A DNA stretch of 64,000 bases, from NCBI RefSeq assembly GCF_026210795.1, contig NC_089435.1, positions 3,472,001-3,536,000 of the forward strand. Reading direction: 5' to 3'. This DNA is from Rhizophagus irregularis (taxonomy: Eukaryota; Glomeromycota; Glomeromycetes; Glomerales; Glomeraceae). Shown piece by piece: positions 2,641-48,647 of this stretch; within the stretch, counting starts at the first letter, position 1; each line of letters opens with the position of its first letter. The position numbers and the translations under genes were made by a program. The notes below the pieces were generated by a model. The model saw only the letters and a program-made list of their open reading frames with translations. It had not been told where the DNA came from and did no database searches.

Positions 2641-2949
2641 AATTTTCGTGCAAAATGTGTAATTCTTTTTGTTCTACAATAAAATCACATCACTATTATT
2701 ATTATTTGCCGAATTTAAATAGAAATCATGGGTCGATCATTCTATTATTCTAATTTATTTATAGTTTAGTTCTTCATATTTTTTGATTTTTTAGTGGCGA
2801 TGAAATCCAAAATAGTACAAGTCAAAACTTTATTGGTTCGCACCAAATCTATTTAAAGTTAGATCGACGATTATGTTATAAACTTCTTTAAACCGAATGA
2901 AACCTTAAATTTTTTCTATCCTAACTACTTTTTTAATTTTTTTTTTATT

Positions 2950-5900: not shown

Positions 5901-6020
5901 ACCCGATTATCACAATTACTTAATTCAGATGACAGGAATGAGGTCTCGGATTTTTTTGGGTTTAATGATTTGACAAATGAATTAAAGGAATATTTTGAAA
6001 AAAATGAAAAAAACAATTAA
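2950..6020 (+). CDS. Receptor-like Kelch-TM-protein kinase
   Basis: Ten exons: 2950-3631, 3712-3749, 3833-3874, 3950-4001, 4074-4262, 4345-4778, 4879-4951, 5026-5213, 5332-5680, 5755-6020, giving 770 aa. Residues 1-22 (MSKKFLVYSILWSLIQLVEV...) look like a signal peptide. Kelch-type repeats follow to about residue 370, with IGGYDG and FGGS blade motifs. A single hydrophobic helix lies at about 389-406 and is followed by KKKK, a stop-transfer signal. The kinase fills about 425-700: glycine loop GTGYFGEVF, lysine in LALKSF, catalytic loop HCDLHSGN, DFG, and IPYIDPKRF in the activation segment. HRD is HCD here, as in other TKL-like kinases of this type that lack the arginine. The predicted topology is an extracellular or lumenal propeller with a cytosolic kinase, so a receptor role is inferred. 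The Kelch part is split by many short introns. The four introns in the kinase part match those of the kinase at 50170-55414. The start is the first ATG before the signal peptide. Confidence 0.88.
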
Positions 6021-8937: not shown

Positions 8938-11900
8938 ATGGAAGGAGAAGAATTTAATCCAACTGAACCTTATACTCGTCGTTTACGTAAAATCCTTGAA
9001 GAATATCCTGATGGTTCACAGATTCTTCGTGAAATTCTTCAAAATTCGGATGATGCAAAAAGTACTGAACAAGTTTTCATTTTGGATCATAATACATATC
9101 CATCAAGTAGTTTGTTTAAACCGCATTTGAATAATAATTGTCAAAGAGGACTTGATAGTTATCAAGGTCCCGCACTTTTAGCAAAAAATAATTCCTTATT
9201 TGAAGAAAGGGATTTTAAATCTTTGCTAAGTTTGGCTAATAGTGAAAAACACGATCAATTTGATAAGATTGGAGGTAAATTTTTATTTATGCTCATAAAT
9301 TTGTTTGTTTTACGCAACTTACAAATTCTAATAACTTTCTACATTTCAATAGTAATGGGAGTAGGATTCAATTCAGTTTATCATATAACCGACTCTCCTT
9401 CATTTATCACTGATGATAAATACGTTATTCTTGATCCACACAAATGGTGTTATAATGGTGGTGTCAAATTCAACTTTATCAACCATGAATTGGCTGAAAA
9501 ATGTCCAGATCAATTTGCTCCTTTCAGAAGAATTCCGTGTGATATTCCATGTGATGAACTATTTAAAAAACCATTTAAAGGCACTATCTTTCGTTATCCT
9601 CTTCGTGATACTACCGGTTCAGATATTTCTGACAAAATTTATAACCCGGAAGATATCTTAGAAATGTTTCACAAATTTTACGAAATTGACAGCATTAATT
9701 GTTTATTATTTTTGAAATATATCGAGTGTATCTCTTTTTATGAATTGGAAAAAGGCGCCAATGAACCTAAATTACTTTATAAAATTCAATTAGAGAATGC
9801 TGAAAAAGTACGCCAAGAACGTCATTTTATAGTTGAAAAAATTATACCAATGATGGATTTGTTAAATTCAAGTAGTCTTAATGAAAACAATCAACTAAAA
9901 GCGACTTATGTTGCATCATTCAGTCGTCAGAAAGGAGATTCTAAAGAACCTAATTCAAAATGGTTAATTTTGAATTATCTTGATGATTTACTCGAAACTC
10001 AAACATATTTTCAAAATAATTTTAGAAAAAACATAAGAGACTACAAATTTATTCCTAATGTTGGGCTAGCGGTTCCTTTAAATGATTTAAATGTTACCGG
10101 AAAATTATTTTGTTTTTTGCCTCTTCCTATCCCAATGCCCTTCTCAGTTTCCGTGCATGGATATTTTGCGGTAGGAGCTTATTATTATTATATTGAATGT
10201 TTTAATAAATATTGCATATCATATATTAAAAATTTTTTCTGACTTGCTTAACAGGTTAACACTAATCGACGCTCTTTATGGTCTGCTGCGGATAATGAAG
10301 ACTTGGTAAAAAATTGATTTTTTTCACAATTATTTTGTTAAACATAAATATTAAAAAAAAGAACTCTTGAAATTTAGGCTGATAATGCATTAGCGCATCT
10401 AAAGGTTAAATGGAATCGATATTTATTTGAAAAAGTCTTACCAAAAGCTTGGGTAAAATTCCTTTGTGAACTCCCATCTAATAATATTCAATCAGGTGAT
10501 TTGTATAAATTCTGGCCGATAGTTAAGGATGATTCATCAGGAAATATAAGTATCTTTTGCAAGGATCTTTTACAAAATGTTGTAGATTGTCTTAGTCTCG
10601 AAGATCGCGTATTCAAAGGTCCATCATCAAGCATCATTGGTGAAATTAGTGGAATATCAGCAGATTCATATAATACATCCTCATTTATCGAGTCCGGATT
10701 TCATTGGCTTTCACTTTCTAATGGCTATTTGGAGGATGAGAAACTATTAAGTTTTGATTTACCCAAAATTATTGGAAAAATAGGATTTCCCGTAATATCA
10801 ACTTCTTATCATATCATAAGTGTCTTAAAAAATTCTAAATACAAAGATTCTCTTAAGTTTTTTTCTCCTGGAGTTATTCGTACTTATTTAAAGCACAATT
10901 TTGACAAATGGGAAGGAAATTTACCAAGAAAAGAAATCTTACAATTATTCGAGTACATATTAAGGGATCAAAATTTTAACGAATTAGAAGGTTTTAAAAT
11001 GATTCCACTTGCGGACAATGAACTTGGTACTATAACACTGTCTAGCGATTCTAATGTATATATTGGTCCGGACAATAACATTGAAGACCATAAATTTGAC
11101 GAACGTCATATCTTCGAGAATCAATTGAACAAATTTATTGACAAATCAATTGACTTTGGATTGTATATGCGTTTGTATGATAATGCAAAGGCTGGATGGA
11201 ATATAAATATCAAAATTCTAAACGAGTCCGTTGTCGCTGATATGATAAGATTCTCATTGAATTATTCGATAAATAAAAAAGACTCCGAAGAAATATCAAT
11301 TCCAAATAATCTTGAATGGATTTATCGATTATGGAATAATTTAAGATACAGAAATTGGAATCTGAGAGAGTTTGAAGAAATTCATTTAATCCCAACAAGC
11401 AACTCTACTATTAGGAAATTAAAAACACCCAGAAAAATTTTTTCGAATAAAACAAGCGAAAATATTTCTACTAATACCTTAATACCTATTTTCGAAAAAT
11501 TCGGTGCTGTTTTCGTGGATAATCAATTTATAGAAATTTCTAAATGGGATAAGTTAGTATTGCTAAATTATAATCTCTTCATATTGTTTCTAAACAAACT
11601 AATTATCTTCACTTTCTTTTTGATAGAACATCTCCTTATATTATTAAGCTTAATGACATTATATCAGTTTTGGCTTCTTTGCGAGCTGATACTTTGTATC
11701 CAGGGAATTTGAATCAAAGTTTACAAATTCATGAAGCACCCGCGCTTGTTGAGCATCTATCTAATTATTTGCGAATTGCAAATAAAGATCATCTTACGCA
11801 AGAACTTATTGAAGTTATCAAGCATCTTCCAATTTTTAATCAAGTGGATCATACTGCAACAATTTCATTATTACCTGGAAATAAAGAATGGTATCTCCTA

Positions 11901-14900
11901 CCTCAGGGCGTAGAGGATTCATATGGTAGAATTATTTATCCCGGTAATAAGGGAGGATTTCTGAGTACAACATCACGAGATTTATGTGATATATTAGAAA
12001 AAGTCATAAAGATTCCTCGACTAAATGTAAATGATTATTGGCGAAATTATGTGATACCATTTCTTGAGACGCAATCATCAGAAAACATAGATATAGTAAT
12101 TGACAAGCTTTTTGATCGATTAACAAATATAATTGATGTTAACTTGAAGGATATTCTCGGAAGAAAGTCTTTTGTACTTACTGGTACACTTAAAATGTCT
12201 CAACAACAACAAAAACCTGATAACGTAAAATTAGCAAAACCAATAGATCTATATGATCCGGAAGAAGAAAAATTAATTAATTTATTTTTTGAAGATGAAC
12301 GTGTATTTCCCGCTGGCAATTATGGCATTTCCCAGACTTCTTTACCTAATAAGTTCCTTTCAAATTTGAAATTGTTGGGAATCAAATCAATTCTTTCTCC
12401 AAATGACGTAATTTCTCGGATCGACGCTATTATAGATCGAAGACAAACTTCCAATGTTCCTGAAGATTTAATCCATACTAAAGCATTAAAACTTTTTAAA
12501 TATCTCGATGAAAATTGGATTAAGATTATTGATGATACACAAATTCGAGGAAATCGCGAGCAATTTAATGCGTTCTTAAAAGTAATTATAGAAAAAGAAT
12601 GGATACCAACTATTGACGTATGTGAGAAAAAAATCTTTTCGAACATTAAAAAATGTCATAGTCAAAAAGACAAAGATTTAGTCTGTCTGGTCACTCCGAT
12701 AGTTGATCATAAGCTTAAATGTAAGAAACTTTTGAAACAATTGGGGTGGGATACATATCCTGTTGTTGGGATGATTATAGAACAACTAGGACTTTGTGTC
12801 AAAGGCGTAAAAAACAAGCAACCACCTAAAAATTTAGTAAAGATTTGTACAGCGGTTTACAAATATATGGACGAAATTTTTAAAGCAAGTGACAATAAGT
12901 ATAATAAAGAATTCAATTATATGAAGAACTATTTGAAAGATAAGCCATGGATCTTTTCGTCGCATGAAGGACAATTTTATCCAGCTGATAAAGTTATCCT
13001 TAAACTTCCGAAAAAATTTCAGAAAAATGAATCTTTAATCATTGAACTTCCAGCAGATTATGGTAGTTTTAAATCTTTATTTGAAGCTATGGGAGTTCGA
13101 GATGAAATTGGAATTAAAGATTTTATTTTAATTATTAATAGCATGGTCAAAGGGAATAAAGACAAAATTTTATCTCCAAACGAAATAAATAATATAATTC
13201 AAATTCTTGAACATATCGCCAGTATACGAAAGAGTAATAGAGGAGATGGAAACAACCCGAAAGAATTAGATGGGCTATTAGTACCAACTAACAAAAATAC
13301 GCTCGCTGACTTACAAGAAATATATTTTGACGATATGGAAGATAGACTTAGTGAAGAAGAGAAAAGAGAACATATAATTGCTCATCGTCTTGTAATTCCG
13401 TATATTGCTAAAGAGTTAGAGATTCAAACTTTAACTGGAAAACTATACGGTAATTATAATGGTACATCAGATATAGATTGGGACACATATGAACAGGATG
13501 AAAAATTGACCACCAGAATTAAGAATATCATCAAGGTAACTTTTTTTTTTTGATTTTTACATTTATTTTTAATTCATATTAGATCCAAATTTTATTAAAT
13601 ACTTTTTTGATGTAATTAGGATTATAAAATAACTTCATTGTTTAAAGAGTTTCTTCAAGTAAGTAATTTTATTATATTATATTCAGAAATTTACTTTTAT
13701 CACATTTACACTACATATTTTATGCGAATATAGAATGCGGATGATGCCGGAGCCACCCAATTTTTAGTAGTGGTAGATGAAAGGAAAACAAATCGGGATA
13801 ATAAACAAAAAAAATCTTTATTGTCAGTAGAAATGGCGGATTGGCAAGGACCAGCAATATGGATATATAATGATGCAGAATTTTCCCCTAAAGATTTTCA
13901 GGCTTTAATCAAACTTGGAATAGGGAGAAAAGCCTGTGATGATACTAAAATTGGAAGATTTGGGATTGGATTTAATTGTGCTTTTCATGTTACAGATCTA
14001 CCTAGCTTTGTAAGTGGAAGATACATTGCATTCTTAGATCCAAATGCAAATTTTCTTCCAGCGCAAGGATATCCTCCTAAAAGGCCGAGGGGTACTCGAA
14101 TTGACTTTATTGATAAGGAGTTTGGGAAGTTTCGGGATCAATGCTATCCTTATGAAGCAATATTCGATTTTATTAAGAAAAGTTTTCCTGATAAGTATAA
14201 AACAACTGAGAGTTGTAGTTTTTCGAGCGAGTTCAATGGAACATTGTTTAGACTTCCACTTAGGAACCATGAGTCGAAAAAAAGTGAAATTTCAGATCAA
14301 ATTTTTGAAATCAAGTATATCTTGTCGTTATTTAACAATGTCCAGAATAATAAAGAAAAGCTCTTTTTAAGGAACATAGAATCATGTAGTCTGTATCACA
14401 TGAAGCAACAAGCTACTCAACTGGTATGGAAAACGCAAATCTATATATCAGATTCAGGTCGCAAAATTCGTAAAAGTGTTATCGATAAGGCACAAATATA
14501 TCAAATGGGTATTGAAATTATTAATAATATGGATCAATCGAAATCATCAGAAATATGGCTTTTATGTACAGGAGGACATGGTAGGGTTACTAAGGTGAAA
14601 CTTGAAAAATTTTCAGAGAGTGAAAAACTCAAAGTAAGCGTAACTAGTAATAAATATGTACATTATATATTGGTCCATTTAATATAATATTCTAATAATT
14701 TTATTCGTTTTATTAAGCCAAGAGGCGGGGTTGCTTTCTTGCTTGCTCAATCTGATAAAAGTTCATTGAATGAATTAAAGGCTGCACCAGTAAGTATATT
14801 TTCTTTTCTTTTCTTTCTTTCTTTTTTTTTTGTATTATTGCATTTACGTGTTATCAAAACTATTATAGTTTTCAAATCTTCCTGAACTTGAAGGCAAAAT

Positions 14901-17900
14901 TTACTCATTTTTATCTTTATCAATAAACACCAATTTGGGAGTTCACTTGAATGGAAATTTTTCTTTACCTAGTGCAAGAAGCGCTATTCTACAGTCTGAA
15001 AACGATTTCTTGAAAGCAGATAGTGACGATGCAAAATGGAATAAATATATTCTATATGACGTTCTATCTGATTTGCACATTAAACTACTTGAGCATATTG
15101 TAGAGCTTGATAAAATCAGACACAAGAAGGAAGGAATAAAGTTCATTCCACATACCACAAATAGGTTTTGGCCAATTAAAAATGACTCAACTATCGGCTT
15201 GTACAAAGACTACGGTTTAAATGTTATTAGGAAATTAGGTAATGGTAATCATAAAATTTTTTGGACTGAAGCTAATGGCGGGCAATTTATTCCGTTAAAG
15301 GATGCCAAAATTTTTGAGGAAGAAGAAGCAATAATTGCGGATATAATTAAATTAGGAATTCCAGCTGTGAAACTTAGTAAGGACAAAATTGAACACTTAA
15401 GTAAGATCGGTGAATCTAAAAATACCCTTAATTTCCCATACAAACCTGTTAATGGAAAATCTATTTGCAAAGAATTACAAATGAAAAGGTTTTCACTACC
15501 TTCTTTTAACACACATGATTCATTGATCAATTTACTTAATTTTATTTTTCAAGATAAAGATTCTTTTAAAGATCTTATTGGATTGCCATTAGTTCCATTG
15601 AGCAACCATTCAATTGGAAAGTTTGGTGAACAAATTTACTACATTGGGGATCAAGAACAAATAGAATTGTTCCAAAAGGCTGGTCCATCTAGATTTGTTT
15701 CCATTGACTTACAAGATAGCTTATTGAAAATTTTTAATGCTGATTTTTCTGAGACTACCAAAATCAGAAAGTTTGACGCTTATGGAGTCTTAGATCTTTT
15801 AAAGGAAGAGTTGCCGATTGTAGAAGAATTGGATGAATCTATTCCAGTCGATAGTTGGCTTGAAAAAATTTGGTCAATATTAATTAAAAGCGCCGAAAAT
15901 ATGGATTTTAACAAACTTACAATATCTCCTCTTTTACCAATTATTCAACCTTCTAGAATGCTAGTTAGACTTAATGTGACAAATCCACCACTCTACGATA
16001 ATGGACATAACTTAATACCATTATTAGTAAAGCTAGAAGTGCGTTTCACTAATATATCGTTTCAAAATGTTCAAAATGAAAAACTCAAAAAATGTGTTTT
16101 GGCATGCACTCCTATTAATATCATTAATTCTTTGGAGAGGACTTGTACTTCATTGTATTTAACAATGGAGGATTTATTCGAGAATAGTGATTTATCGGCT
16201 CATGACTATGAGGACTTTAGAACATTTATTAAAGTAAATCTTGAAATTTTGTTAGGCAAGTGAAAAAAACTGCAAAAATAATTTATGTTTAATTAAAGTT
16301 AATATTCTGTGTTGACATATTTATTTGATTTACGTTTTACAGGACATTGTCGAAATCAAGAAAATTTTATGAATATTCTTTGTTCGTTACCGATATGGCC
16401 ATTACATTCTTCCGAAGATAAATTCATTGATGCCAAATCTGGAAAACTCCTTCCATATAAGCTCCCATTTTTTTCTTTTGATAAGAATACTGAATTTTAC
16501 AAATGTGATCGTGAAATGGATTTCGAAGTACTTCGAATATTAGGTGTCACTCCTATGAGTGAATTAGAATATATTAAAAAAAATATAATACCGAAATTTA
16601 AAGATTTTCAAACACCATCTCAGAAATATATCGATTTCTTGCAGAGTATTTTATCGGGTAATCAAGAAATTGAAAAACATCTTAAGAAATATCCAGCAAT
16701 ACCTAATGGATCACTTACTGAATTTGTAAAAGCTGATGCTTTATATGATATTACCGTTCCATTATTTAGTTATGTTTTTAAAGATGACGACAAATTTTTA
16801 CCTAGAATATTTTATAGTAATAAGGTTTTAATGGCAGCTTTAAAAAGAATGGGTCTTAAGTACCAAGTGAATTGTGAAACATTTATTGAATGTGCACAAG
16901 AGATTGAACAACAATCTGATATTCAATCTGATAGGTTTTCGATGGAAGAAGTCAAAATGATGATAAATCATTTATATAATAAATCTATTTCAAATCTAAA
17001 ATTCTTGGATGACCAGTGGAAAAAACTTATAAATATCAAATTCGTTCCATCGAAAATTATTCAAAATCCACTTTGTGAGGAATCGAAAGAAACCCTGAAA
17101 TTTGGAAGTTTCTCGGTGCTTTGTTTTCAAAAGTATAAGGATGTATGTTGGACCAAAAGGCATTTTTTTGAAAAAAATGTTGAACCTACTGATTCATTTT
17201 GTAAACGTGATCCTAGGATCGGAATACCGTCGCCAAAAGATATTATAGAACACTGGTCTTTCGTTGTTAAAAATATTGAATCAATATTTGGGCAAGATCG
17301 CAGTGAAGCTAAAAGAGTGATCGAAGAAATTTATAAAATAATGAACAAAAATGTAGAAGAGTCTGAGGAGTTGGAAATTGATAACAAAGAGGAATTATTC
17401 TTAAATGGGGATGACCCACTTGATGAAAAATGTTGGGTAACAGGGAGTAAACTTGCGTTTGGAATACAAGAAAATACTGAAGCTAGAGATAAAGTTGTTG
17501 ATTTTTTAGCGCCTTATAAGACTTTATTATTACGTGCTGGAGCTATGGAGGTAGATGATAACTATATAAATGAGTACAAACGAAGTGAAAAACTTTCTCA
17601 AAAAGACAAGCTGTTTAAAAATTTATTAAAATTTATAAATCATGAAAATAAACATCATGATGTTACTTTTATTGTTGGTAAAGAAGAAATAAGTGCTAAC
17701 AGATATGTACTTTCTGGTACGTTAATTTACTTTTTGAGAACTTTTTTTTTCCCCTTATTAATAGTTATTTAAATCTTTCTATATAGCTGCTTCAACCCAT
17801 TTTGAAATGGTATTTTGTGACTTAAATAAGACGGAAATCAAGGTTGAAAAAGAAAAGCCACATACAATTAGGGTATTTCTTCGATGGTTATACGGGGAAG

Positions 17901-18172
17901 AAGCAGCCATAAATGAAGAAAACTTTGAAGAAGGAAAGGAATATTATACGGATTATTTGACGTTTCTAGTTGACTTATTAAAAGTAGCTGACAATTATGA
18001 TGTTGAATTACTCAAAAATGAAGTGGAAGATGTCATTATAAGTGATCGACGTATTAGTGTTCATAATGTAAATAAAATTCTGAATTGTTTAAAGGAATGC
18101 AAGGCACCTGCATTGAAATTAAAAGAATGCTGTGAAAAGTTTAAAGAAGATAATAGCGAACTTTGCAGATAA
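8938..18172 (+). CDS. Sacsin-like double HSP90-type ATPase with BTB domain (paralog A)
   Basis: Eleven exons: 8938-9274, 9353-10170, 10255-10305, 10378-11552, 11627-13535, 13620-13658, 13734-14633, 14718-14789, 14869-16255, 16343-17716, 17787-18172, giving 2815 aa. The first GHKL/sacsin ATPase is near residues 10-260: N-box REILQNSDDA, YQGPALLAKNN, GVGFNSVYHITD. The second is at about 1434-1700: EFLQNADDAGAT, DWQGPAIWIYND, KIGRFGIGFN. Long repeat-type regions follow each. A BTB domain occupies about 2660-2800 (HHDVTFIVG, RYVLSAASTHFEMVF, FLRWLYG). Human sacsin instead ends in DnaJ and HEPN domains. A chaperone-like ATPase that recruits Cullin-3 through BTB is a reasonable inference. The intron after 16255 has a GC donor (GCAAGT). 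Intron 1 (78 nt) has no in-frame stop, so a read-through would keep the frame. The C-terminus is shorter than in paralog B. Confidence 0.88.
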
Positions 18173-20981
18173 TGAAGGCATTAGGATAGTACTTTCAGAC
18201 ATGACATTATGATAAGGTTTAAGCATATGGACAAAACTGAAGATTCAACTAACGCTGTTATTTATATTATCAAATTATAAACGTGGGATCAATTTTTTTT
18301 ACACGACTTTAATATCAATGAAAGAAATGAAGTACAAATAATGCACGGTTCAGCTAATTTGGATTGAGCAAATATTATGCTTTTAGAACTGATTTTATTC
18401 ATATTTTTAAATCTATCTTATTATTGTGTTTTTTTATGTAACCAGCATTTAATTTATTAAATTTTATATTTTTACAATAACTAAAATTTAATTTTTCATC
18501 GTACCTTATTTGTGTAAGTTTTATCCAGAACTACAATAATTAATTCTTCGTTCAAACAGTTTCTTTTAAACGAGTTCATAACGTTTAGGCGGAAATAAAA
18601 CAATACGGTGAGAAAAAAAGCGTTGTTACGTGTTCGGAAGTGGCATGGTCATTTGGCCATTTAATATCGCATGATTTAATCGAAAAAACAAAAAAAAAAA
18701 TTATTAAATGTAGGCCAGAATTATAGTGCCGGCCAACATTAATCTCAAATGATGACTGACACTTATCATTTGATCACTTAACAGTTAATACTTTTTTGAA
18801 AGGTATATAAACATTCTTAAAAATTAAACTTTTACTTCTTTTTAAAACTAAATATCATCAAAAATTTTATAAGATAAAGTATTGATATATTGGAAAAGGA
18901 GATATGATTGATTTTTCCTAACAGGTAAATTTTACATGGCACGTGCTTAAAAATTTGTGTTATATTACATTTCGTATTGTAAGCACAGTATATTAAATTG
19001 TATTTATTATGAATATATATTTATAAAACATGCATTCAAAGTTTAAAAAATCAAGTGAAACTAAGTTCTATTATTATACAATATGAATACATGAGAAAGA
19101 GCCAGCCTGTTAATAAATGAAAGTAATAAAATAAAAGAGAAGCAGGAGGAAGAATTAGCTGAGCTCTACCCCATATTATGACGTTCTTTCGTTTTGCTAA
19201 TCATGATGTAAAATATTATGAAATTTTTCAAAACTACTTGGCATTTTGGTGAAAAAATTTTTTGGTAATTTTTTCAAAGTAACTTGATTGATACAAATTT
19301 TTTTTGGAATTTTTTTTTATAAATGGTAGATGCAGGCCGAACCTTGGTATTTAATAAAATATCTAGCAATTTATAACCAAAACAGTAATCATATGTAAAA
19401 TAAAAAGCAAATATCATACCTGGTATCCGCCTTTCGCTTTATTCAAAGGCAGATTCTATGTCAAAATATGAGACTTTATACATAATCACATCAGGAAATT
19501 TTTTCCCTGCGACGGGGGTGTAAACTTACGTAAATTTGTGTAAATATGCGTTAGTAAACTTACGTGGGATTACATCCCCATAACAGGGCTACGAATTTTT
19601 ACATCTAAGATAAGTAACATCGATAAATCGCTATAAATAATCCCCATAAAAAAAATCCAATAAATGATCATTTTTCTAGTTTTTATTCCGAAGAAACTCA
19701 CACGTGATCATTTTTCTGAAAAATTTTTTATAGGGCTATAATTTTAAAACTTAGTGTATAAACCTAGCAACTCCGTACTTTGGATAATGCTTTAAACGTC
19801 AATGTGATTTTGACAAAAAATACCTAAGCCCATTAGTAACAGCCCTAAGTATAATACGGATTATTATAAAAACGTATCTTGGAATAACTTTTCGTTATTG
19901 TAAGTTCAAGCCACATTCAATTTAGAAGATGTTACAAAAATATCAATTAAGGAATTATGATAAAGAATTTATTAAAATCAATTTATATTTTCTTTAAAGA
20001 ATTATTTCAATACTAATATTAAAATAGAAGAATTTGTTTAGGAAATGTAGTGAAAGAAATTAGAAACTAATTTACCTAATACTTAGGACCAAAGTCAGAT
20101 GTAGTGCAACAAGCAATTATTATGAATTAATGAAATTTAAAGCAGTTATTCCAAAGCTTTGAGAATAGATGATTATTTTTTTTTCAATTATTTACAAGAA
20201 TTTATTTTTTCATTTTATATTTTAGTAAGATTGTTTTCATTCAATAAAATGTAAGCATATTATACAATCCCAAGAACCTTACAAAGTAATGGACACAACA
20301 ATTGCTTCTTCAACAAAATTTCAATGTCAACACGCTATGCTATTTTATATGCCAATTTAAAAATTGGTAATTACAAATTTTATTAATCACAATGCATATA
20401 GGCAATGCGCACTAATTAATATTCTTTTACTTGTTTTACTTTGTTTTAAATTTGTGATCAACACATGACCGTTTTACATTCTTGTGTTGATACTCGGTGA
20501 TACGAAATGTGATATAAAATCATTTTTCAAGCTTATCTGGATAATCATTTTAACATCATTGTTCCCTATTGCAGTAAAAACTTTATAATGTTTGAAAGAA
20601 TTAATAAATGCTTCATAATAATCTTCGATATCTGTGTAATGATAAACAAGTAAAATTTTACCTGTTTTGGAAAACAAGGCTATAGAATTTTAAAACAAAT
20701 AAAAACTGTGTTGCATAGTTTTTTATACTAGGAAAGAAAAGCTTCATTTCAAAACCCATAAAATCTTTTTATTATGTCTCCGGAATCTCCATCGGTGGAA
20801 GTTTCCGGGTTCCTTATCAAATTACCTTTTTTGGGTTCAACAGTATGATTGATGTCCAAATTTGTTTATATTTATTTTGTGTGATGCTATAAGCCATTTA
20901 TAAAATTAGAGTTTGCATAATTTGTTGCATATTGCATAAACTTCTTTCGTGTTTATAATTTTTTAATTTTTAACACGAAAA
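18173..20981. other. Intergenic between tandem sacsin-like paralogs
   Basis: AT-rich, no convincing gene. A variant of the CCGGCC-ATTAA dispersed repeat lies at about 18713-18735. A minus-strand frame at 20474-20677 (67 codons) has mixed composition and could be a gene fragment, but nothing is recognised. A short imperfect palindrome occurs near 20782-20810 (CCGGAATCTCC...GGAAGTTTCCGG). Promoter signals for paralog B are not evident. Confidence 0.5.
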
Positions 20982-23900
20982 ATGTCTAATAAAATAAATA
21001 GTTCTCATACTCCCAGGAGAGCAAGAGGAAAAGAATTTAAACCACGTGAACCTTATACTCATCGTCTACGTAAAATCCTTGAAGAATATCCTGATGGTTC
21101 ACAAGTTCTTCGTGAAATTCTTCAAAATTCAGATGATGCAAAGAGTACAGAACAAGTTTTTATTTTGGATCATAATACATATCCACCGGATGGTTTATTT
21201 GAACCAGATTTGGTGAATAATTATGAAAGAACAAACTTGAAACTTGATAGATATCAAGGACCAGCATTATTTGCGAAAAACAATACCATTTTTGAAGAAA
21301 GAGATTTTCAATCTCTATTAAAATTGGCCGACAGCGAAAAACGGGATCAATTTGATAAGATTGGAGGTAAAATTTGTTTCATATCATTAATTATTATTAT
21401 ACTATAATATAATATATAACCTAATTTTTCTTTTTTTTAAAAAAAAAAACTTAGTAATGGGAGTCGGTTTCAATTCAATTTATCATATTACCGATTCTCC
21501 TTCTTTTATTACTGGAAGTAAATATGTTATTCTTGATCCACACGAGTGGTATTTTAATGGTGGTGTCCAATTCGACTTTGTTGATGATAACTTAGCCGAG
21601 GATTATCAGAATCAATTCGCTCCTTTCAGGATTCCGTGTAATAAACCATATGAAGGCACTATATTTCGTTATCCTCTTCGGACTGATGAAGACTCTATTG
21701 ATTCAGACATTTCTAAAAAAGTTTATAAGCCCGAAGAAATTTTGGACATGTTTAAAAAGTTTTATGAAAATGAAAGCATTAATTGTTTATTGTTTTTGAA
21801 ATATATCGAACGTATTACTTTTTATGAATTGAAAGAGGGAGCTTCTGAACTTGAATTATTATATACAATTCAACTAGATAATGCTGAACAAGTACGGGAA
21901 CAACGACGTTTGATAACTGAAAACATTGTTTTAATGATGAATAAACTACAATCAAAAAGTCTTGGCCAAATTAATCAATTACAAGCATCTTATGTTGCAG
22001 AGTTTTCACAACAACAGAAAAATGATTGTAAAGAGATTAGTTCATGGTTAATTTTGAATTATCTTGATGACTTAAATGAGGCTGAAAAACACTTTCTAGA
22101 AAAATTTGATAAAAATATAGGAGATTACAAGTTTGTCCCCAATGTTGGTTTAGCTGTTCCTTTGAATAATTTAGACGTTACTGGAAGATTATTTTGCTTT
22201 TTACCACTTCCCATTGATATGCCTTTTCGTATCTCTGTGCACGGTTATTTTGCGGTAAGAATCAATGAAATTTTTTTTTTTGATTTTTAATATTTTAATG
22301 CTTAATATTAATTACCTTTCACTTTTTAATTACTTAATAGGTTAGTACTAATCGGCGTTCCTTATGGTCAGCAGCAGACAATGAAGATTTAGTGAGTCAT
22401 CGATATTCATACTTTTTTATTAGGATTTATGTGATCTCAAAGATTTTACATTAACTTCTTTTTTTAAACATATTATTGACTTTAGGCGATTGATGCATTA
22501 GCGCGTCTTAAAGTTACATGGAATCGATATTTATTTGAAAATGTTCTACCTAAAGCTTGGGTGAAATTTCTTTGTGAACTTCCGCTTAAAGTTACCAATA
22601 TACAGCCGAGTGATTTATATAAATTTTGGCCAATGTCCAAAGGAAGCGCATCTAGTAGCATCAATAACTTTTGCAAGGATCTTCTGCAAAACGTTATAAA
22701 TTGTCTTAAAGTAGAGGATCGTGTATTTCAAGGACCTTCTTCATTAAGCACTATTGGAGAAGTTGAAAATTCAGCGACTTTATATGATTGTTCTTTGTTT
22801 AAAGAATCTGAATTTCATTGGCTATCACTCTCTAATGGTTATTTAGAAGATGTGGCTAATGTTTATTTGCCTAAAATAGTTGGAGAGATTGGATTCCCTG
22901 TAATAACAGTTCCTCCTGACTTCATCAAAATCTTAAAGAATTCTCAACATAAAGTCTCTCTTAAATTTTATTCTCCTGCCGTTATTCGTAAATATTTAGA
23001 TCTCAATCGTGCTAGATGGGAAAATACAATACCAAAAAAAGAAGTCTTACAATTATTTTATTATATATTGAAAGACAAAAAATTTGACGAATTGGTGGGT
23101 TTCAAGATGATTCCACTTGCGGATGGTGAACTTGGTACTATAACGCTGTCCAACGATTCTTGTGTATACATTGGTCCAGACAATGACATTACAGACCATA
23201 AAAATGATGAGCGTAATATCTTCAAAAATCAATTGAACAAATTTATTGACAAATCGATTGATTTTGCATTGTATAGGCGTTTGTATGATAACGCAAAGGC
23301 TGGATGGGATCTAAACATCAAAATCTTGGATGAATGTATTGTAGCAAATATGATCAGATTCTCACTAAATTCTGATATCACTGATGATAACCGGAATGTA
23401 GATACCATTTTCGCGAATTCTGAAGAGATAGATATATTAGATCGTCGTGAATGGATTTATCATTTGTGGGAAAATATTAAATATAGAAATTGGGATCTGA
23501 AAAAGTTTGAAGAAATTCATATAATACCGACTAGTCGATTTACTCTCAGAAAATTAAAAACTCCAAAGAAAATTTTTTCTAGTCAAACAAGCACAAATAA
23601 CTCAATTAAATCTTTGATTTCTATTTTCGAAAAGTTTGGCGTTGTTTTTGTGGAAAATAAATTTGAAATTAGTAAAACTTCTAAATGGGACAAGTAAATA
23701 TTTTTAATTAATGATCATTGTTTCCGTAAGTTCGTTTGTTTTCATGGTCGAATAAACTAAATACCTTTTTTCTTTTTCTTTTACTAGAATTTCCCCATAT
23801 ATTATCAAACCTGATGATATTATATCAGTTTTGGATTCTTTTCAAGCCGATACTACCGATACTTCATGTCCAAAATATCCTGAGAATTTGAATTGCGTGT

Positions 23901-26900
23901 TACAAGATCATGAAGCATCAACACTCGTTGGATATTTATCTAATTATTTACGACTTGCTAATAAATATCATCTTGTACCAAAACTTATTGATGTTATCAA
24001 ACACCTTCCAATTTTTAACCAAGTTGGTCACACTTCTCCAATTTCATTATTACCCGGAGATAAGAAATGGTATCTTTTACCTCAAGGTGAAGAGAATTCA
24101 TATGGTAAAATTATTTATCCAAGTGATAAGGGGGGATTTCTCAGTACAAAATCGCGAGACTTAAGTGATATCTTAGAAAAATACATAAAAGTTCCTCGAC
24201 TAAATGCGAATGACTATTGGCGGAATTATGTAATACCATTTCTTGAGACACAATCACCAGAAGACATAGATATAGTAATTGACAAGCTTTTTGATCAATT
24301 ACCGCATATAATTGATACTAGCTTGAAAGATATTCTCAGAAGAAAGTCTTTTGTACCTGTTGGCACGTTTAAAATGTCTCAACAACGACAAAAATCTGAT
24401 AACGTAAAATTGGCTAAACCAATAGATTTATTTGATCCGGAAGAAAAAATCTTAGTTGATTTATTTTTTGAAGATGAACAAGTATTTCCCGCTGGCAATT
24501 TTGGCATTTCTCAAACTTTTTGTTCTAAAAAGTTTCTTCCAAATTTGAAATTGTTGGTGGGAATCAAATCAATTCTTTCTCCAAATGATGTAATTTCTCG
24601 GATCGACACTATTATAGATCGTATAGATCGAAGACAAACTTCTAATGTTCCTGAAGATTTAATTCGTACAAAAGCATTAAAACTTTTTAGATATATCGAT
24701 GAAAATTGGAATAAGTTTATTATTGATGATACACAAACTCGGGAAAATCGTGGACCAAGTAATGCATTCTTAAAAACAATTCTAGAAAAAGAATGGATAC
24801 CATCCGTCGACGCATTTGATAGTAAAATTTTTTCGAGCCTTAAAAAATGTCATAGTCAAAAAGATAAAGATTTGATCTGTTTGGTCACTCCGATAGTTGA
24901 ATATAAGGTTAAAAATAAGAAACTTTTGAGACAATTGGGGTGGGATACATATCCTGTTGTTAAGATGATTATAGAGCAACTAGGACTTTGTTTCAAAGGC
25001 GTAAAAAACAAGCAACCACCTAAAAATTTAGTAAAGATTTGTACAGCGGTTTACAAATATATGGACGAAATTTTTAAAGCAAGCGATATTAAATCTAATG
25101 AAGATTTCAATTATATGAAGAATTACTTGAAAGATAAGTCGTGGATCTTATCGTTACGCGAAGGACAATTTTATCCAGCTGATAAAGTCATCTTTAAACT
25201 TCCAAATAAATTTCAGAATAATGAATCTTTAATCATTGAACTTCCAGCAGAATATTTTAGTTTTAAATCTTTATTTGAATCTATGGGAGTTCGAGATGAA
25301 ATTGGAATTAAAGATTTTATTTTAATTATTAAAAATGTGATCAAAGGAAACAATGATAAAGTCTTATCCGCAAACGAAATAAACAACGTTATTCAAATTC
25401 TTAAACAAGTTGCAGAAATACAAAAAGATAATCGAGATAATCCGGAAAGCTTAGATGGATTATTAGTTCCAAGTACTGAAAATAAGCTTGTTGACTTGCA
25501 TGAAATTCAATTTGATGACATGGGAGATAATCTTAGTGATGAAGAGAGAAGCAAACACAAAATTGCTCATAAACTTGTAATTAAGGATATTGCTAAAGAA
25601 TTGGAAATTCAAACTTTAAAAGGGAAAATTTATGGTAATTATAATAAATTAATATATTTTCTAAGATTATGAACTTTAATATGTATTATTTGAACTTTCA
25701 TCGATTTCAATGGCAGGTAATGATTATACCGGAGATATGGATTGGGAGAAATATGAACAAAATGAATCTTTAACAACTAGAATTAAAAATATTATCAAGG
25801 TAAAGTTTGAGATTTATTACCGAGTTATATCATTTGATTTTAATATATATTTTTGAATATTTTTGGTTCTATCAATAGGATTATTCGATAAATTCATTAT
25901 TTAAAGAATTTCTTCAAGTGAGTAATGTATTTTAAATGTTATTTTTCTAAAAGAACTTATCTAGTGAATTTGTATTTGGATTTATAATGATATAGAATGC
26001 AGATGATGCTAAGGCTACTCGCTTTGACATAACAGTGGATGAAAGACGAATATTTCAGCACAATGGCCGAAAATACTTATCAGAAGAGATGGTAGATTGG
26101 CAAGGTCCTGCGATATGGATATATAATGATGCAGAATTTTCTCCTAAAGACTTTCAGGCTTTGATAAAACTTGGAACTGGAGGAAAATCTCATGATGAGA
26201 CTAAGATCGGAAGATTCGGAATAGGATTTAATTGCGCTTTTCATCTTACGGATTTACCTAGCTTTGTGAGTGGAAAATATATTGTATTTTTAGATCCAAA
26301 TGCAAAATATCTTCCAGCACAAGGATATCCTCCTAGAAGGCCAAGGGGTACTCGAATTGATTTTATTAATAAGGAATTTAAGAAAAGCTTTCCGGAACAA
26401 TGCTATCCTTACGAGGCATTAGGATGTAATTTTTCAGAAGAATTCAAAGGAACATTGTTTAGGCTTCCACTTAGGACTTTAAAAACAGCAAAACAAAGTG
26501 ATATTTCAGATCAAGTTTTTGAAATCAAAGATATCTTGCAACTATTTAGTGGTATTAAAAGTAATAAAGAGATGTTATTTTTAAGGAATATAGAATCGTG
26601 CGGCCTGTATCACATGAGACAACAAACTAATCAATTGATATGGGAAGCGCAAATTGATATGTCAAACAAAGATCGTGGTATTCGTAAAAGTGTCATTGAT
26701 ATCGCTCAATTATATCAAATGGATATTGAAATTACAAATAATAAACTTAATAAGAGAGTATCAGAAATATGGCTTTTATGTACAGGGGGAATTCAGAGTA
26801 ATATAAAACAAGACTTAAAAGAATTTTCAGAAAAAAAACGACTTAAGGTAATGTAATGTATTTTATTATTATGTATATAATATTTTAGTGAAACTAATAA

Positions 26901-29900
26901 ATGATTCTTTTTTCATTTTTATTAATCAAGCCAAGAGGAGGGGTTGCATCCTTGCTTGCTCAATCTGATAAAAAATCATTTGCTGAATTAAGGACTGAAT
27001 CGGCAAGTATTTTTTTTTTCTTTTTATTTTATATGAAAAATCAATTACCTAACCTGTAAGAAAAAAATAACCAATTTTCAAATTTTTCATTATAGTTTCC
27101 TAATCCTCCTGAACTTAAAGGAGAGATTTACTCATATTTGCCTTTATCAATAAGTACCAATCTGGGAGTCCATTTAAATGGGAACTTTTCTTTATCTAGT
27201 GCAAGAAGTAATATTCTACAGTCTGAAAATGATTTCTTACAAGCTGATTGTGATGATGCAAAATGGAACCGCTATATCTTATATGATGTTTTACCCATTT
27301 TACACAATAAACTACTTGATGAGATCGTGAATCTTGAAGACATTAGATACAACAACAATAGAACTGATTTTATTCCACATACCTTAAATAATCTTTGGCC
27401 AATTACAAAAAATTTAACTATGGGATTGTACAAAAGTTACGGATTAAATGTTATTAAAAAGGGTAATAATAGAATTTACTGGACCGAAGCCAACGGTGGT
27501 AGATTTATATCATTAAAAGAAGGCAAAATTATTGAAGGAGAAGAAACAATGATTGGCGATATTTTGGGAGAATTGGGAGTTTTAATTTTGAAACTTGACA
27601 AGGACAAGCTTGAACAAATCAAGGAGATTGCTAAAAGTAAAAGGAGTCTAGGGTTCAAATATGAAACAATCAGTGGAAAAGAAGTTTGCGATAAATTGCG
27701 AGGAAAAGATAGTTTTATAAATTCATTTATACAAAAGAATAATGATAGTTCTGATAAAAAGAAGGACCCTCACGAAACAATATTCTTATTGCTTCGCTTT
27801 ATTCTTAGTAGTATTGATGGCTCATATAAAAATCTCGATAGATTACCATTAGTTCCATTGAGCGATGATTCGGTCGGAACGTTTGGCGAAGTCTATTATA
27901 TAGGGAAACAAAAGCATATAAACCTGTTTCCTAAAGTTGGGCCATCAAAATTTGTTCGTGTTGAATTACCGCACGACATAGAAAAAGTTTTTAAACGGGA
28001 TGATTTTTCTGTATTAAATATTAGACAGTTTGATTCTGCTGCAACTTTAGATCTTTTGTCCTTAGAATTTCCATACAAAAATATTAAGGAATTGGATTGG
28101 GATCCTTATGGCAAATCTATACCAAATGACGAATGGCTAAAAGAAATTTGGTCTAAACTTACATCTAGTAAGACTATAGATTTTACAAAACTTTCAAAAT
28201 TTCCTCTCTTACCAATGATCCAACCTTCCGAGAAGCTCGTTCAACTTGACATAACAAATCCGCTTTTAAATGTTGAACACGGAAGCAATTTATATCCAGT
28301 ATTAAAAAAGCTCAAGTTACGGTTCACTAATATGAAATTTCCAGACAACGCTAATTCAAATATCAAACAGTGTGTATTGCCATACAATCCAGTTAATATT
28401 GTCAATGCCTTGGAGAGGACTTGCATTTTATTGGATTTGTCTATGGAACAATTATTTAAAACTAGTGATCTTACAAATAAGGACTATGAAAGATTTAGAA
28501 CATATATTAAAGAAAATCATGAAGCATTTAAAAGTAAGTTAATGATTGATAAACTATTATATTTGATTAATAGCTTGTTAATAACTAACAACAAATTATC
28601 GTAACAGGACCGATTCGAAATCAAGACTTTATGAATGTTCTTCGTTCATTTCCAATATGGCCAGTACATTCTTGTGATAATAAGTTTATCGATGCCGGAT
28701 CTGGAATTCTCCTTCCGCACAATCTTCCATTTTTTTCCTTTCAGCAAATTGGTAATTTTTACAAATGTGATGAATATGATTTCCGTACTCTTTTCGGCTT
28801 AAGTGTTACTTACATAGATGAAGAAAAGTATATTAAAGACTATTTCATACCTCAACATATAAATACATTACCATCCGAAGATTATATTACTTTCTTGCAG
28901 AAAATTTTATCTTTAGGAAAGAGAGAAATCGAGCAATATTTTGAATTATATCCATTAATTCCAAATAAATCACTTACAGCTTTGGTAAAGGCTAATACCT
29001 TATATGACAATAATGTTCCTTTATTCTGCAGTGTTTTTGAGGACTCCGACAATTTTTTACCTACAATATTTTATAGTAATCCAGCTTGTGTGACAGCATT
29101 GAAAAGAATCGGTCTTAAGTATCAAGTGAATTGTAAAACCTTCATTGAATGTGCACAAGAGATTGAGTCACAACTTCAAAATAACAAATATCCAATGAAC
29201 ATAATCAAATATCGAGCAAAATATGTAATAGATTATTTATATGGACATATTGAAACTCTAAATTTCTCAAGTGTTCAATGGGCAGAAATTATGCAAATAA
29301 AGTTCGTCCCATCAGAAAAAAATTTTCAAAATTCATTATATGAAGATGTGAAAGAAACTTCTGGATTTGAAAGCTTTGCGGTGCTTTGTTTCCAAAGATA
29401 TAAGGAAGTATGTTGGACACGAAAGCCTTTATTTGATAAAAGTGTTGAACCAAACAGCTCATTTCTTCTGCGTCGTCCTAAAATTGGAAAACCATCTTCG
29501 GAAGATGTTATTAATCATTGGTCTTATGTTGTTGATAAAATTAAATCAAGATCTTTAGTTTGGAGATCTTCAGAGAATTATAGTGTTGTTAAGAAAATAA
29601 TCAAAAAAATTTATGAAATAATGAATGAATTTTCCAAAGAAACCCCTGGGTTAAGTATTGACCCAGAAGAGAAATTATTCTTGAATGGAGAAGATCCATT
29701 TGATGATGAAAATTGGGTAGCAGGAAGTGAGCTTGTATTTGGGGTACAAGAGGATATTAGAAAGGGATTATTACATAAAGTTAATGAATGTTTAATCCCT
29801 TACAAGGAATTATTGTTAGTTGCAGGAGCTCTAAAGCTGGAAGAAATAATAGAAGATGAATTAGATTTTAACGAAAAACACGATCAAAAAAGTTTGTTGC

Positions 29901-30606
29901 TTGATAGTTTGTTGGATAGACTTGTAAAAGGCCTTAATACAAAGCATCATGATGTAATTTTTATTGTCGGTGAGAAGGAATTGAAGTTTGGCGCTAGTCG
30001 TTACGTCCTTTCTGGTGAGTTAAGGAAGTTATTATTTTTGCGCTTTATATTTTATTAAATTACTTATTAAAATGCTTACGTCTTTTATCAATAGCCGCAT
30101 CTAAATATTTTGAGAAAATGTTTTGTGGTCACACAGCTGAGTCAATAGAAAATCAACAGATCGAAATTAGAATAAACGATATTAATCCGGATGCTTTTAA
30201 AGTATTCCTTCGATGGTTGTATGGACAATCTTTTGAAACCGCAAAAAATGCTATTTTACGCAAACAAACTGATTTTAACGCAGAACAAGAAGATTATGTT
30301 TCTTACTATTTATCATTTCTTGTTGATCTGTTGAAAATTACAGATATGTATGAAGGTGAACCACTTAAAGATATAGTAGAAGTTACGATTATAAAGGGTA
30401 AATACATTAATGTCAATAATGTATGTGAAATCCTTGAATGGGCAAAAGATTGCAAAGCTTCAAAACTAGCAACTCGCTGTGAAAAGTATATAGAAAAAAA
30501 TAAACATATAATCGTGGAGAAAAGGTTGGAACTTTGTGAAACTGAATTGGACGACGAAAGAAGGGAAGAAGAGTCACAAATGTTAGAGTTATTATTAAAC
30601 AATTAA
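20982..30606 (+). CDS. Sacsin-like double HSP90-type ATPase with BTB domain (paralog B)
   Basis: Twelve exons: 20982-21366, 21455-22254, 22341-22391, 22486-23693, 23788-25634, 25717-25799, 25879-25917, 25996-26847, 26931-27002, 27096-28533, 28608-30014, 30095-30606, giving 2897 aa. It is the tandem duplicate of the gene at 8938-18172, with the same domain order and ten shared intron positions. The first ATPase has REILQNSDDA and GVGFNSIYHITD; the second has EFLQNADDAKAT, DWQGPAIWIYND and KIGRFGIGFN. The C-terminal BTB has HHDVIFIVG, LSAASKYFEKMF and FLRWLYG, then an extra acidic helical tail absent from paralog A. One additional intron (25635-25716) interrupts what is continuous coding in A. 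The intron after 27002 has a GC donor (GCAAGT), where A has GT. The 16-residue N-terminal extension before KEFKPREPYT is also specific to this copy. Function is inferred as for A. Confidence 0.88.
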
Positions 30607-30907: not shown

Positions 30908-33900
30908 TTATACATTTCCAGTCCCAGCAGCTAATTTATTCAATACGTTTAACATTTCAGCTAATCTACCCTCCAATAAATTTAATCTCTCACCAATAGA
31001 ACCTTCAATAGTTTTTATAGAATCCTTTAATGATACTATTTCACTTTGAATACTACTTGCATCTTCAATCATAGGTGATATTACATTTGTAGTTTCAGAT
31101 AAATCATCATTTTTAAAATTAACTTTCTTATTTGTTGAGCTCTTCTGAGAAGTTTCGATGTTTTCATCACTATCAGCTGTACTCGTACTCCAACTACTAT
31201 AAAATTCTATCCTACTTTTCCTATTCATTGACTTAATATTCTTTTTATCATAAACATCAACGTCTAACCCAGTTATATCCCATCCTTCCTTTGAAGGCTC
31301 GTTATCCTTATCATTATTATCATCATAATATTTATTATAATCATAGAATTTCTCTTTAGTCGACGATTCCCTCAATTTCCAATATTCTTCACATTTTCTT
31401 AACCATTTTGTCAATTTATTGATATTGCCTAAATAGAATATATGTCTTGGATTTCCTTTTGTATCTCCAAATGGTTTTTCTAATATTTCATATTCTGCGA
31501 TTAAATCGGAACGATATTTTAATACTGCTAATCTACCTTCAGACTTAGCCTCATCGAATACACCCCTAAATTAAATAAGAAAAAAATTTTAATAAATTCC
31601 TTCGTGAAATAAATAATCTTTATAATTTTCTATACGTTAAATATACTTACGACATAAAAGCGATTAACATATTTTGCATAATAATGACTAATATAACACT
31701 AGCGATTAAACTCAATACACTAACAGGCCAAAAATTCCATTGTTGTAATTGATCCCAACGTCCATTAATCCAAAAATAAACAGCTACTACGGATTGAGCA
31801 AAATTTGCAAAATAATTGTCTGTTGCTTTATTTAAATCAAACGTTTGATGAATCGTCCCAGTCTTTATTCCATTATTATCTTGTAAATCAAATTGTGTAC
31901 CATCCGGTTCAAGTCCAATTTTTTCTGGTTCACGAAGTAACAAGTACCTAAAAGTAGGAGAGTAAAAAGTGAAAGAAAGTTAGAGAAAAGAAAAATGAGA
32001 TAAAGAAAATGTGTACACATATTTTGATAATTACATCGCATGTCCGTGTGCAAGTACCACAATACCTACATGTTATAAAAATTATAGGATTAATTTAAAC
32101 TCAAAAAAAAAATAAAAAAATAAATTATATATATTTTTAATAAAAAAAAAAAATTTATTTACCCATGAATGCGATGAAGGGCCAGACGTTACGTACAATA
32201 TTTATAATTATATAAATAAAATTCCCTGTTACCGCGAAATATCTAAGTAACAAGAACTAATAAAAGAAAAGAACGGTTAAATAAATCATAAGAAAGAAAT
32301 CATTTTTACAATATAAATTATATACCATTTCAATCCATAAAACCAAGATAGTGAAGGACATAGCCACTGTTGACTGTTGTACCTGATTTATTGGTACAGT
32401 TCCTCTAGATTCCCTTACCCATGTAACAGTATAAGCAGCTAAAGGCATAATAATACTAGCTAGATCAAAAAAGTTATAAACGCTAATATATCTTCTCCAG
32501 CCTTCGTGATAAAATTGTACAATTTCACTAGCCAGTAGATAATAACCCAAATAATAAAAAGTAAATATCAAAAGCTTTACGAAAGCCCTAATATGAACAT
32601 TTTCTTCATTGTTAGCATTAGCACGCACATTATTTACTACAAAACTATTTTTTAATGCGCCAGTTAATACAGCAAATAAAAGCGCAAAGCAAACGAACAA
32701 AAGTGCATGACGCAAGAAATGACTACGCGCGTATTCCCACTTAAAGTCTATTACAGCTTCCATTGCAGGATTATCAAATATCATACCATCCTTATCTTTT
32801 CTTACTACTCTAAGGAAGGGGGATAAATTTGATTCTTTTTTAATGGCGTATCCACGTGGCCAAAATAATATACGTAATAATTGAAATGGCAAATTACGAG
32901 GGTTTAATTCTTGACTTTTTGTACCTTGAGGATATACAGTGAAATCTGGTAGTGGAACCGATCTTAATGCTACTAATGCTGATGAATCTCCTCTCCCTAA
33001 TCCTGGTATCACTTTTTGTAATGCTACCAATTGCTGGTTATGCGTAATACTATTAACAAGAAAAAAAGATTAATTGAAAGTTTGGTTACGAATTTAGACT
33101 AAAAGTTAATAACATTTTACCTGGTCTTTGATTTATCTATTATATTCGCGATGGGCTGTAATATTTTAAACTTACGTAAGTTACGTAAGCTAATTGGCTT
33201 TTCCTTAGGTTCTAATCTGGTATTTGGGTTGAATGCTTTTATATACCTTAATTTACCTTGAGGTAAATCATTGGGATTTATATGCGATTCGTCCAGATGG
33301 ATTTCTTTCATTCCAAATATAGGCTTAGAGAACAGATCTTTAGCATATGAGTCTAAACGAAAAAAAAAAGTTAAAAATATATTTATTTTCTGTATTTTTT
33401 ACTACTCCATATTCCATTTAATTTAACTTCTTACCAAGATGATGGTCAAACAATAAAGGGACAGCACAAGACACTGTAAACATCCAGCCAGTATTATCCA
33501 TTGCATTATCAGAATAATAATCCAGAAGAAAACCGACCATAACCGCATCTCTTTGTCTTCTTCCTTCACTACATTTTATTGCAATCTCTAAATCACTTGT
33601 TTTTTGTTTTTTTGGCCACTCGTTCAGTCGTGGAGTATGAAGATATCTCATCCAAGGATTAGATTCTTCATTATTAAGAATTTTTTGTATCAAACGTATA
33701 CGACGACCTTTAATAAGACTAGCCATAACATCATATCTAACATCAATTAATCTCCAAATAGCGGGGCGTTTCTTAATGAATTGTCTAATCAATCTTTCGG
33801 TTCTATGAACCAAGTTTTCATATTCTTGTTGCTTCTGCAGACCAGCTGGATCATCTCTTCTATCGTATAAATGCCAAAGAGCGGAACAAGCATGATTAAC

Positions 33901-48241: not shown

Positions 48242-48647
48242 TTTTTATTGTTTATCCTTTTTTTGCAGTTATCTTATTGTCCGGAGCGTAACAAAGAATA
48301 TACTTTATATACTATATCATTTTTTTTTATTAATACGGTTCGTTTTTCATGTGAAAAAATTCACAAATAGTTCACATGGTCATGTGATATTTGAAGCAAT
48401 TACATATTTACATGATTGAAAAATGTCACGAATAATCACGTGATCTTCTATCACCGGTCGTCAGTCGTCACCCTCCGTGTTCCATATTTCATAAGTATCT
48501 GAGGCAAAATCCTATTCGTCACGCAGTATCTGTCACATATGCGTCAGACGCATAATTCGCGAGATTTTGTGGCTATAAAAGCATTCTTTTTTGTCGCAAT
48601 TGATATTTACCTTATTTCGCTGTCAAAAGGTTTACCACTGGTTTTTA

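Follow-up and report, generated by a model that had tools for sequence, protein, structure and literature searches.

A sacsin-type ATPase family with C-terminal BTB domains in Rhizophagus irregularis: predicted dimerisation and variable capacity for Cullin-3 binding

In this study we analysed a stretch of 64,000 nucleotides from the arbuscular mycorrhizal fungus Rhizophagus irregularis (assembly GCF_026210795.1, contig NC_089435.1, positions 3,472,001 to 3,536,000 of the forward strand; this whole stretch is hereafter the window, and positions within it are counted from its first letter), and identified two neighbouring genes for sacsin-type ATPases that end in a BTB domain. Each gene model is predicted to yield one long protein, in which two sacsin-type repeat units, each made up of an HSP90-like ATPase module and a long region behind it, are followed by the BTB and a helical stretch matching that of SPOP. 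The SACS-BTB fusion in the gene models was confirmed as real, conserved and expanded. The reading that we prefer, with a probability of about 0.5, is that the family consists of dimerised sacsin-type chaperones, with recruitment of Cullin-3 (Cul3) likely in some paralogs, as predicted from sequence.

A sequence-only reading of this region had proposed tandem sacsin-type genes at 8938-30606, and two open spliced models were indeed obtained there, arranged in tandem on the plus strand without an internal stop in either, and encoding proteins with 62.6% identity over 2900 columns. The models and the exons that carry the BTB are as follows.

8938-18172, plus strand: gene 1 (SACS-SACS-BTB), 11 exons, 2815 amino acids, open spliced model with Pfam matches on the spliced protein
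8938-9274, 9353-10170, 10255-10305, 10378-11552, 11627-13535 and 13620-13658, plus strand: gene 1, exons 1-6
13734-14633, 14718-14789, 14869-16255, 16343-17716 and 17787-18172, plus strand: gene 1, exons 7-11
16343-17716, plus strand: gene 1 exon with the tail of repeat unit 2 and, from 17650, the first part of the BTB, in one open frame (16303-17772)
17787-18172, plus strand: gene 1 final exon with the remainder of the BTB and a helical, 3-box-like stretch (BTB match, open reading frame (ORF) 17765-18169)
20982-30606, plus strand: gene 2 (SACS-SACS-BTB), 12 exons, 2897 amino acids, open spliced model with Pfam matches on the spliced protein
20982-21366, 21455-22254, 22341-22391, 22486-23693, 23788-25634 and 25717-25799, plus strand: gene 2, exons 1-6
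25879-25917, 25996-26847, 26931-27002, 27096-28533, 28608-30014 and 30095-30606, plus strand: gene 2, exons 7-12
28608-30014, plus strand: gene 2 exon with the tail of repeat unit 2 and, from 29942, the first part of the BTB, in one open frame (28589-30058)
30095-30606, plus strand: gene 2 final exon with the remainder of the BTB, a helical, 3-box-like stretch and a short C-terminal extension (BTB match, ORF 30019-30603; family profile against SPOP)

The models were assembled from stop-to-stop frames joined at GT-AG introns plus one GC-AG intron per gene, all 70-94 bp in length. The gene 1 model begins with its ATG at 8938 and the stop codon of gene 2 ends at 30606, in exact agreement with the proposed coordinates. 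The GC-AG introns are found at 16256-16342 (gene 1) and 27003-27095 (gene 2), and their positions differ between the genes. When the gene 2 protein was used as template for a spliced alignment, the identical ten introns were recovered for gene 1, the resulting protein beginning three codons ahead of the ATG and ending two codons short of the hand-made model.

The fusion of the BTB to the C-terminus within one gene model, as proposed from the sequence alone, was upheld by Pfam on the spliced proteins (PF00651; 2.8e-12 and 47.2 bits for gene 1, 3.7e-14 and 53.3 bits for gene 2 at residues 2703-2778, against a Pfam cut-off of 20.5 bits). In both genes the domain is cut by a phase-1 intron (the phase being computed for gene 1). 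On single ORFs, the BTB of gene 1 was matched on either side of this intron (20.9 and 24.9 bits), and that of gene 2 by its second half only (39.8 bits), the first half by itself being left unmatched by the Pfam BTB model at E 0.1. In both window genes a single uninterrupted reading frame covers the end of repeat unit 2 and the initial portion of the BTB, and the fusion is therefore independent of the guessed splice, because the first half of the BTB shares an open frame with the last repeat. The same holds throughout the family described below: repeat tail and BTB start lie within a single open frame at 18 of 18 loci, and at four of these (L012, L013, L014 and L016) the tail and the entire BTB do so. 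The BTB scores of single ORFs were 38.5 bits at L014 and 50.6 bits at L016. It could be argued that the fusion is an illusion of assembly or annotation, in which separate BTB genes lie just behind sacsin genes, since BTB-like stretches are very numerous in this genome (1561 first-look candidates, of which 150 were scored). A rough calculation from these 1561 candidates gives a chance expectation, for each locus, of about 0.003 BTBs on the same strand within 600 bp. Because tail and BTB share open frames, a separate BTB gene behind the sacsin gene is very unlikely, and we give this explanation hardly any credence.

The two ATPase modules that the sequence-only reading had assigned to each gene were likewise recovered. 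Pfam placed SACS (PF25794) in two stretches of each spliced protein, with E-values of 6.4e-147 for gene 1 and 1.9e-149 for gene 2, and the modules were located as follows.

8965-9780, plus strand: gene 1 ATPase module 1 (SACS), interrupted by the intron 9275-9352 (Pfam)
13728-14423, plus strand: gene 1 ATPase module 2 (SACS), range of the genome-search match
21045-21864, plus strand: gene 2 ATPase module 1 (SACS), interrupted by the intron 21367-21454 (Pfam and PDB sacsin match)
25987-26637, plus strand: gene 2 ATPase module 2 (SACS), range of the genome-search match, with PDB sacsin match

Besides SACS and BTB, no Pfam family was above its curated cut-off in either spliced protein, and neither DnaJ, HEPN nor a ubiquitin-like domain was matched in them by Pfam up to E 1. 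Among solved structures, the relatives of the gene 2 modules are human and lizard sacsin, the human ATPase domain (PDB 5V44) matching module 1 with an E-value of 4.5e-37 and module 2 with 1.5e-26; the search with module 1 also gave a chance match to keratin (0.95). We then compared 15 ATP-site positions of human sacsin (Glu116, Leu117, Asn120, Asp123, Ala124, Asn160, Phe164, Asp168, Ser178, Lys180, Gly188, Gly191, Gly193, Phe194 and Thr269), taken from PMC9880540, using the alignments to PDB sacsin for gene 2 and the motifs, by eye, for gene 1. Module 1 of both genes is identical to human sacsin at 14 of the 15 positions, Leu117 being replaced by Ile. Module 2 of both genes is identical at 13, with Phe for Leu117 and Gly for Ser178, the latter Gly being present also in human repeat 3. 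The equivalent of the catalytic Arg474, which is outside this count, can be placed only tentatively (NRR in unit 1, SAR in unit 2). The idea that module 1 is a dead ATPase, based on N-N where module 2 has N-D, was rejected, since human sacsin has Asn there: the position of Hsp90 Asp79 is Asn in all three human sacsin repeats (Table 1 of PMC9880540), and this Asn is kept by modules 1 and 2 of the present proteins. The homology between repeat units 1 and 2 covers the greater part of each (1035 columns in hhalign with 10 family members) and extends beyond the ATPase, 736 columns being aligned without it at a probability of 99.2. A pattern scan with module 2 over prokaryote genomes and viral contigs, which finds close relatives only, gave 28 and 3 matches, respectively, none of which was confirmed.

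Search of the genome (146,748,485 bases in 32 contigs) with the SACS model gave 41 matches, which were grouped into 17 loci. Nine of these, including both window genes, form an array of about 298 kb on contig C7 (3.20-3.50 Mb), and the remaining eight are on C2 (two), C6, C8 (two), C14, C15 and C17. A second search, with the last 639 residues of gene 2, identified a BTB match downstream of all 17 SACS loci, the one on C15 being partial, and also an 18th locus on C16, where repeat and BTB are present but the SACS model gave no match; since the genome search scores the best candidates only, the 18 loci are a lower bound. Both modules were matched at 12 of the 17 SACS loci, module 2 only at L007 (in the stretch read, the upstream frame being broken), and a single module at four (C2 twice, C14 and C15). 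These last four (L012 and L013 on C2, L014 on C14 and L015 on C15) are single-module SACS-BTB loci, in which no intron was seen within the BTB. Outside the window there are ten two-module loci, of which L001, L002, L004, L005, L006, L008 and L009 are open with zero events (for L004 a stop was counted within the genome-search match, but none is present in the spliced model), and L010 has a single frameshift near its end. The other two, L003 (C7:3278600-3285600) and L011 (C17:2632200-2639100), are on different contigs and yet share the absence of two internal stretches, one per repeat unit. Both keep the BTB, with the repeat-to-BTB junction in open frame, and we read them as a putative short subtype of the family. 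Their interpretation as pseudogenes was rejected after many of the stop and frameshift events had been traced to templates that contain the stretches both loci lack, with the reservation that two frames overlap near position 1850 of L003. Trees were made for the tail (13 rows) and the BTB (15 rows) of the 18 loci, omitting L014, L015 and L016 from both and, for the missing stretch, L003 and L011 from the tail tree. In both trees L012 and L013 are separated from all other rows, and L009 groups with L010, as does L004 with L005; the remaining forks of the BTB tree are mostly weak, and the placement of gene 1 differs between the two. The distribution of the fusion speaks for an event that is old in this lineage and was then copied, rather than a recent accident.

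The selection on the BTB was estimated for seven gene pairs as the ratio of non-synonymous to synonymous substitution rates (dN/dS). Over the BTB and downstream helices the ratios were 0.18, 0.33, 0.36, 0.21, 0.87, 0.27 and 0.37, that is, 0.18-0.37 in six of the seven pairs, and they were above the ratio for module 1 in five of the seven. As judged from these values, the BTB is under selective maintenance in most pairs, less strict than that of module 1.

For the BTB itself we used an alignment of 17 of the 18 loci, from which L015 was omitted for its deleted stretch. The profile of these 17 BTBs had its best PDB match in SPOP (1.3e-13), in two stretches of which the first, with 30.1 bits, covers the core. 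The Asp and the Arg/Lys that we take to be the residues of the BTB dimer pocket are present in 17 of 17. With respect to the partner, cullin matches spanning most of the cullin model were found on C8 at 2638691-2641458. The first exon (2638691) matches Cullin-3 in PDB with 1.2e-27 versus 1.2e-7 for Cullin-4A, and retains the helix LSFEELYRNAY-MVLHK. Cul3 is reported to contact BTBs through F54, Y58, Y62 and L66 (PMC3616122), and by our reading this helix holds the equivalents of all four. On these matches, a Cul3-type cullin gene is present in the genome. The matches belong to three tandem sets within 2628369-2641458, and the two other sets resemble the Cul3-type one by eye.

The following points weigh against the reading proposed above. 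The phi-x-E motif of the alpha3-beta4 loop, with which BTBs contact Cul3, is strict in only 8 of the 17 family BTBs, reduced to the Glu in 4 and absent from 5; gene 1 is one of those without it, and gene 2, with T-A-E, falls in the Glu-only class. As a control, 20 other BTBs of the genome, on different contigs and picked from the 150 listed high-scoring BTB matches, were examined, and 15 of them carry the strict motif; the family is not proved to be different from these, because the Fisher test for 8/17 versus 15/20 gives p 0.10. The second stretch of the SPOP match, behind the BTB core, is modest (23.1 bits, independent E-value 5e-4), and that it reaches into the SPOP 3-box is our assumption. 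Conservation of the dimer pocket is weak evidence because its residues are common to BTBs generally. At L015 a stretch is deleted after the first helix and the BTB scores 19.8 bits, below the cut-off. In the closest pair, L009/L010, where dS is 0.09, the BTB dN/dS was 0.87, and for the window pair the ratio of 0.18 was obtained at a dS that is saturated (2.0) over the BTB. Finally, chaperone activity is a property transferred from animal sacsin.

Since the dimer pocket is kept in 17 of 17 BTBs and the strict phi-x-E in 8 of 17, dimerisation is predicted to be the steady property of the family BTBs and Cul3 binding the variable one. In the mechanism that we propose, the two ATPase units of each chain would hold clients, as an ATP-driven chaperone or remodeller after the manner of sacsin, as suggested by homology. 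The BTB would stand in the C-terminal place of the DnaJ-HEPN end of animal sacsin and, as its conserved residues suggest, would pair two chains into a C-terminal dimer like that of HSP90. With less confidence, in paralogs with phi-x-E the BTB and 3-box may dock Cul3, and the clients held would then be ubiquitinated. The two window proteins are expected to be poorer Cul3 binders and may work mainly via dimers, possibly heterodimers with other paralogs. The sequence-only reading had regarded each protein as carrying its own Cul3 adaptor; for the two window genes this is not supported in the form proposed, gene 1 lacking phi-x-E and gene 2 having only the degenerate form T-A-E. Its Cul3 interpretation stands in part, in that a Cul3-type cullin is found in the genome and the BTB profile is closest to SPOP. 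With regard to the residues on which that interpretation had been staked, those for Cul3 binding are lacking in gene 1, while the dimer interface is retained in its pocket residues. A combined role of chaperone and ligase is conceivable at the level of the family, with a weak case in the two window genes, and the 'refold-or-degrade machine' is kept here as a hypothesis. There is a precedent for an idea of this type, because animal sacsin has already been linked to the ubiquitin system, through an XPCB-like region and Ube3A (PMC3629688).

Other explanations differ mainly in the output that they assign to the BTB. It might be a pure dimerisation or oligomerisation module, replacing both the HEPN end of sacsin and the C-terminal dimeriser of HSP90, with no link to Cul3. 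Animal sacsin HEPN dimerises, and the invariant Asp and Arg/Lys of the dimer pocket agree with such a role, as does the missing or degenerate phi-x-E in 9 of 17 BTBs; a pure dimeriser, however, would have no obvious need for the SPOP-matching stretch that is retained behind the BTB, and the strict motif is still present in 8 of 17, so that we regard this explanation as unlikely, though worth serious attention. At the other extreme, every family protein, the window pair included, would be a Cul3 substrate adaptor that couples ATP-driven holding of clients to ubiquitination. The conserved BTB-binding helix of the Cul3-type cullin, the proximity of the BTB profile to SPOP including the stretch behind the BTB, and the eight strict motifs are all in its favour, but phi-x-E is absent or degenerate in 9 of 17, both window genes among them, and in KLHL3, substitution of the motif Glu or at two helix positions close by makes Cul3 binding too weak for determination of a dissociation constant (Kd) (PMC3616122), which makes so general a role rather doubtful. 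The proteins could also be a diversifying recognition or defence family, which senses foreign or misfolded proteins and signals via the BTB in parallel to the Sacsin-DEATH proteins of a sponge, a proposal that overlaps the others. It is consistent with the nine-locus array over about 298 kb of one contig, with a dN of the repeat tail above that of module 1 in six of seven pairs and above that of module 2 in five of seven, and with the animal fusions of sacsin-like proteins to DEATH and of sacsin to TRADD-N (PMC3710099, PMC8195603). In contrast, wherever dN/dS is defined, for six regions in seven pairs, it was never found above 1, and amplification of BTB genes is general in R. irregularis (PMC8647823); we consider this proposal improbable. 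As an extension of the preferred reading, that of dimerised chaperones with Cul3 recruitment in some paralogs, one may imagine that this fungus turned sacsin into an expanded family in which one protein is both chaperone and ubiquitin ligase adaptor: the ATPase repeats would select clients and retain them, homo- and heterodimers of tandem paralogs, formed through the BTB, would set the range of clients, only the phi-x-E paralogs would pass clients to Cul3, and refolding-only partners would be mixed with degrade-capable ones; we put this forward as a speculation with rather little chance of being correct in full.

Several other genes were observed in the window. Upstream of gene 1, at 2863-6020 on the plus strand, Kelch-like repeats are followed by protein-kinase-like frames, as judged by eye. 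Directly behind gene 2, the frames at 30908-35562 (minus strand) have the look of an ion-channel-type membrane protein by eye, and no Pfam match above cut-off was obtained in the four pieces scanned. Two gene copies at 40543-41562 and 47237-48244 (minus strand) are 89% identical over 331 columns; the first carries a ubiquitin domain (PF00240, 2e-14) followed by a sub-threshold match to DUF3990 (E 0.049), and this DUF3990-like region has, by eye, an ADP-ribosyltransferase-type look. An open frame of 1061 amino acids at 51063-54248 (minus strand) contains tetratricopeptide repeats and a sub-threshold RING-like match, and its start resembles, by eye, the end of a protein kinase.

Animal sacsin is described as a ubiquitin-like domain (Ubl), three HSP90-like modules, DnaJ and HEPN (PMC3710099). 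The animal protein, with its SIRPT/SRR repeats (and the Ubl in vertebrates), and the present family have in common the HSP90-like SACS modules with most ATP-site residues, repeats that reach beyond the ATPase and an accessory domain at the C-terminus. The present family differs in its two repeat units instead of three, its lack of a match to Ubl, DnaJ or HEPN, its C-terminal BTB and its at least 18 loci. The sponge Amphimedon has sacsin-like proteins fused to DEATH domains (PMC3710099); there, as here, a single lineage has several such proteins with an adaptor attached, which is DEATH in the sponge and BTB in the fungus. To the Cul3 adaptors with BTB and 3-box (SPOP, KLHL3 and KLHL11) the family is related by its best profile match, to SPOP, and by phi-x-E in 8 of 17, but differs in the substrate part, which is MATH or Kelch in those proteins and the sacsin ATPase here, and in the motif, which 9 of 17 members, including the window genes, lack or have in degenerate form. 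In plants, sacsin-like proteins that end in a RING finger also combine sacsin modules with a domain of ubiquitin-ligase type. RING is an E3 domain by itself, whereas a BTB would need Cul3. In print, a basidiomycete sacsin is named as a BLAST label (PMC11503967), and no report of a sacsin-BTB fusion was found among the matches listed in open-licence literature, although protein databases may well list the architecture from the public proteome.

Sacsin is the protein of the ataxia ARSACS (autosomal recessive spastic ataxia of Charlevoix-Saguenay). A family that ends in a BTB, with phi-x-E kept in some members and lost in others, offers a natural setting in which dimerisation and ubiquitination can be compared as outputs of such an ATPase of the sacsin type. 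For Rhizophagus itself, the finding suggests that the amplification of BTB genes has reached a chaperone-like family.

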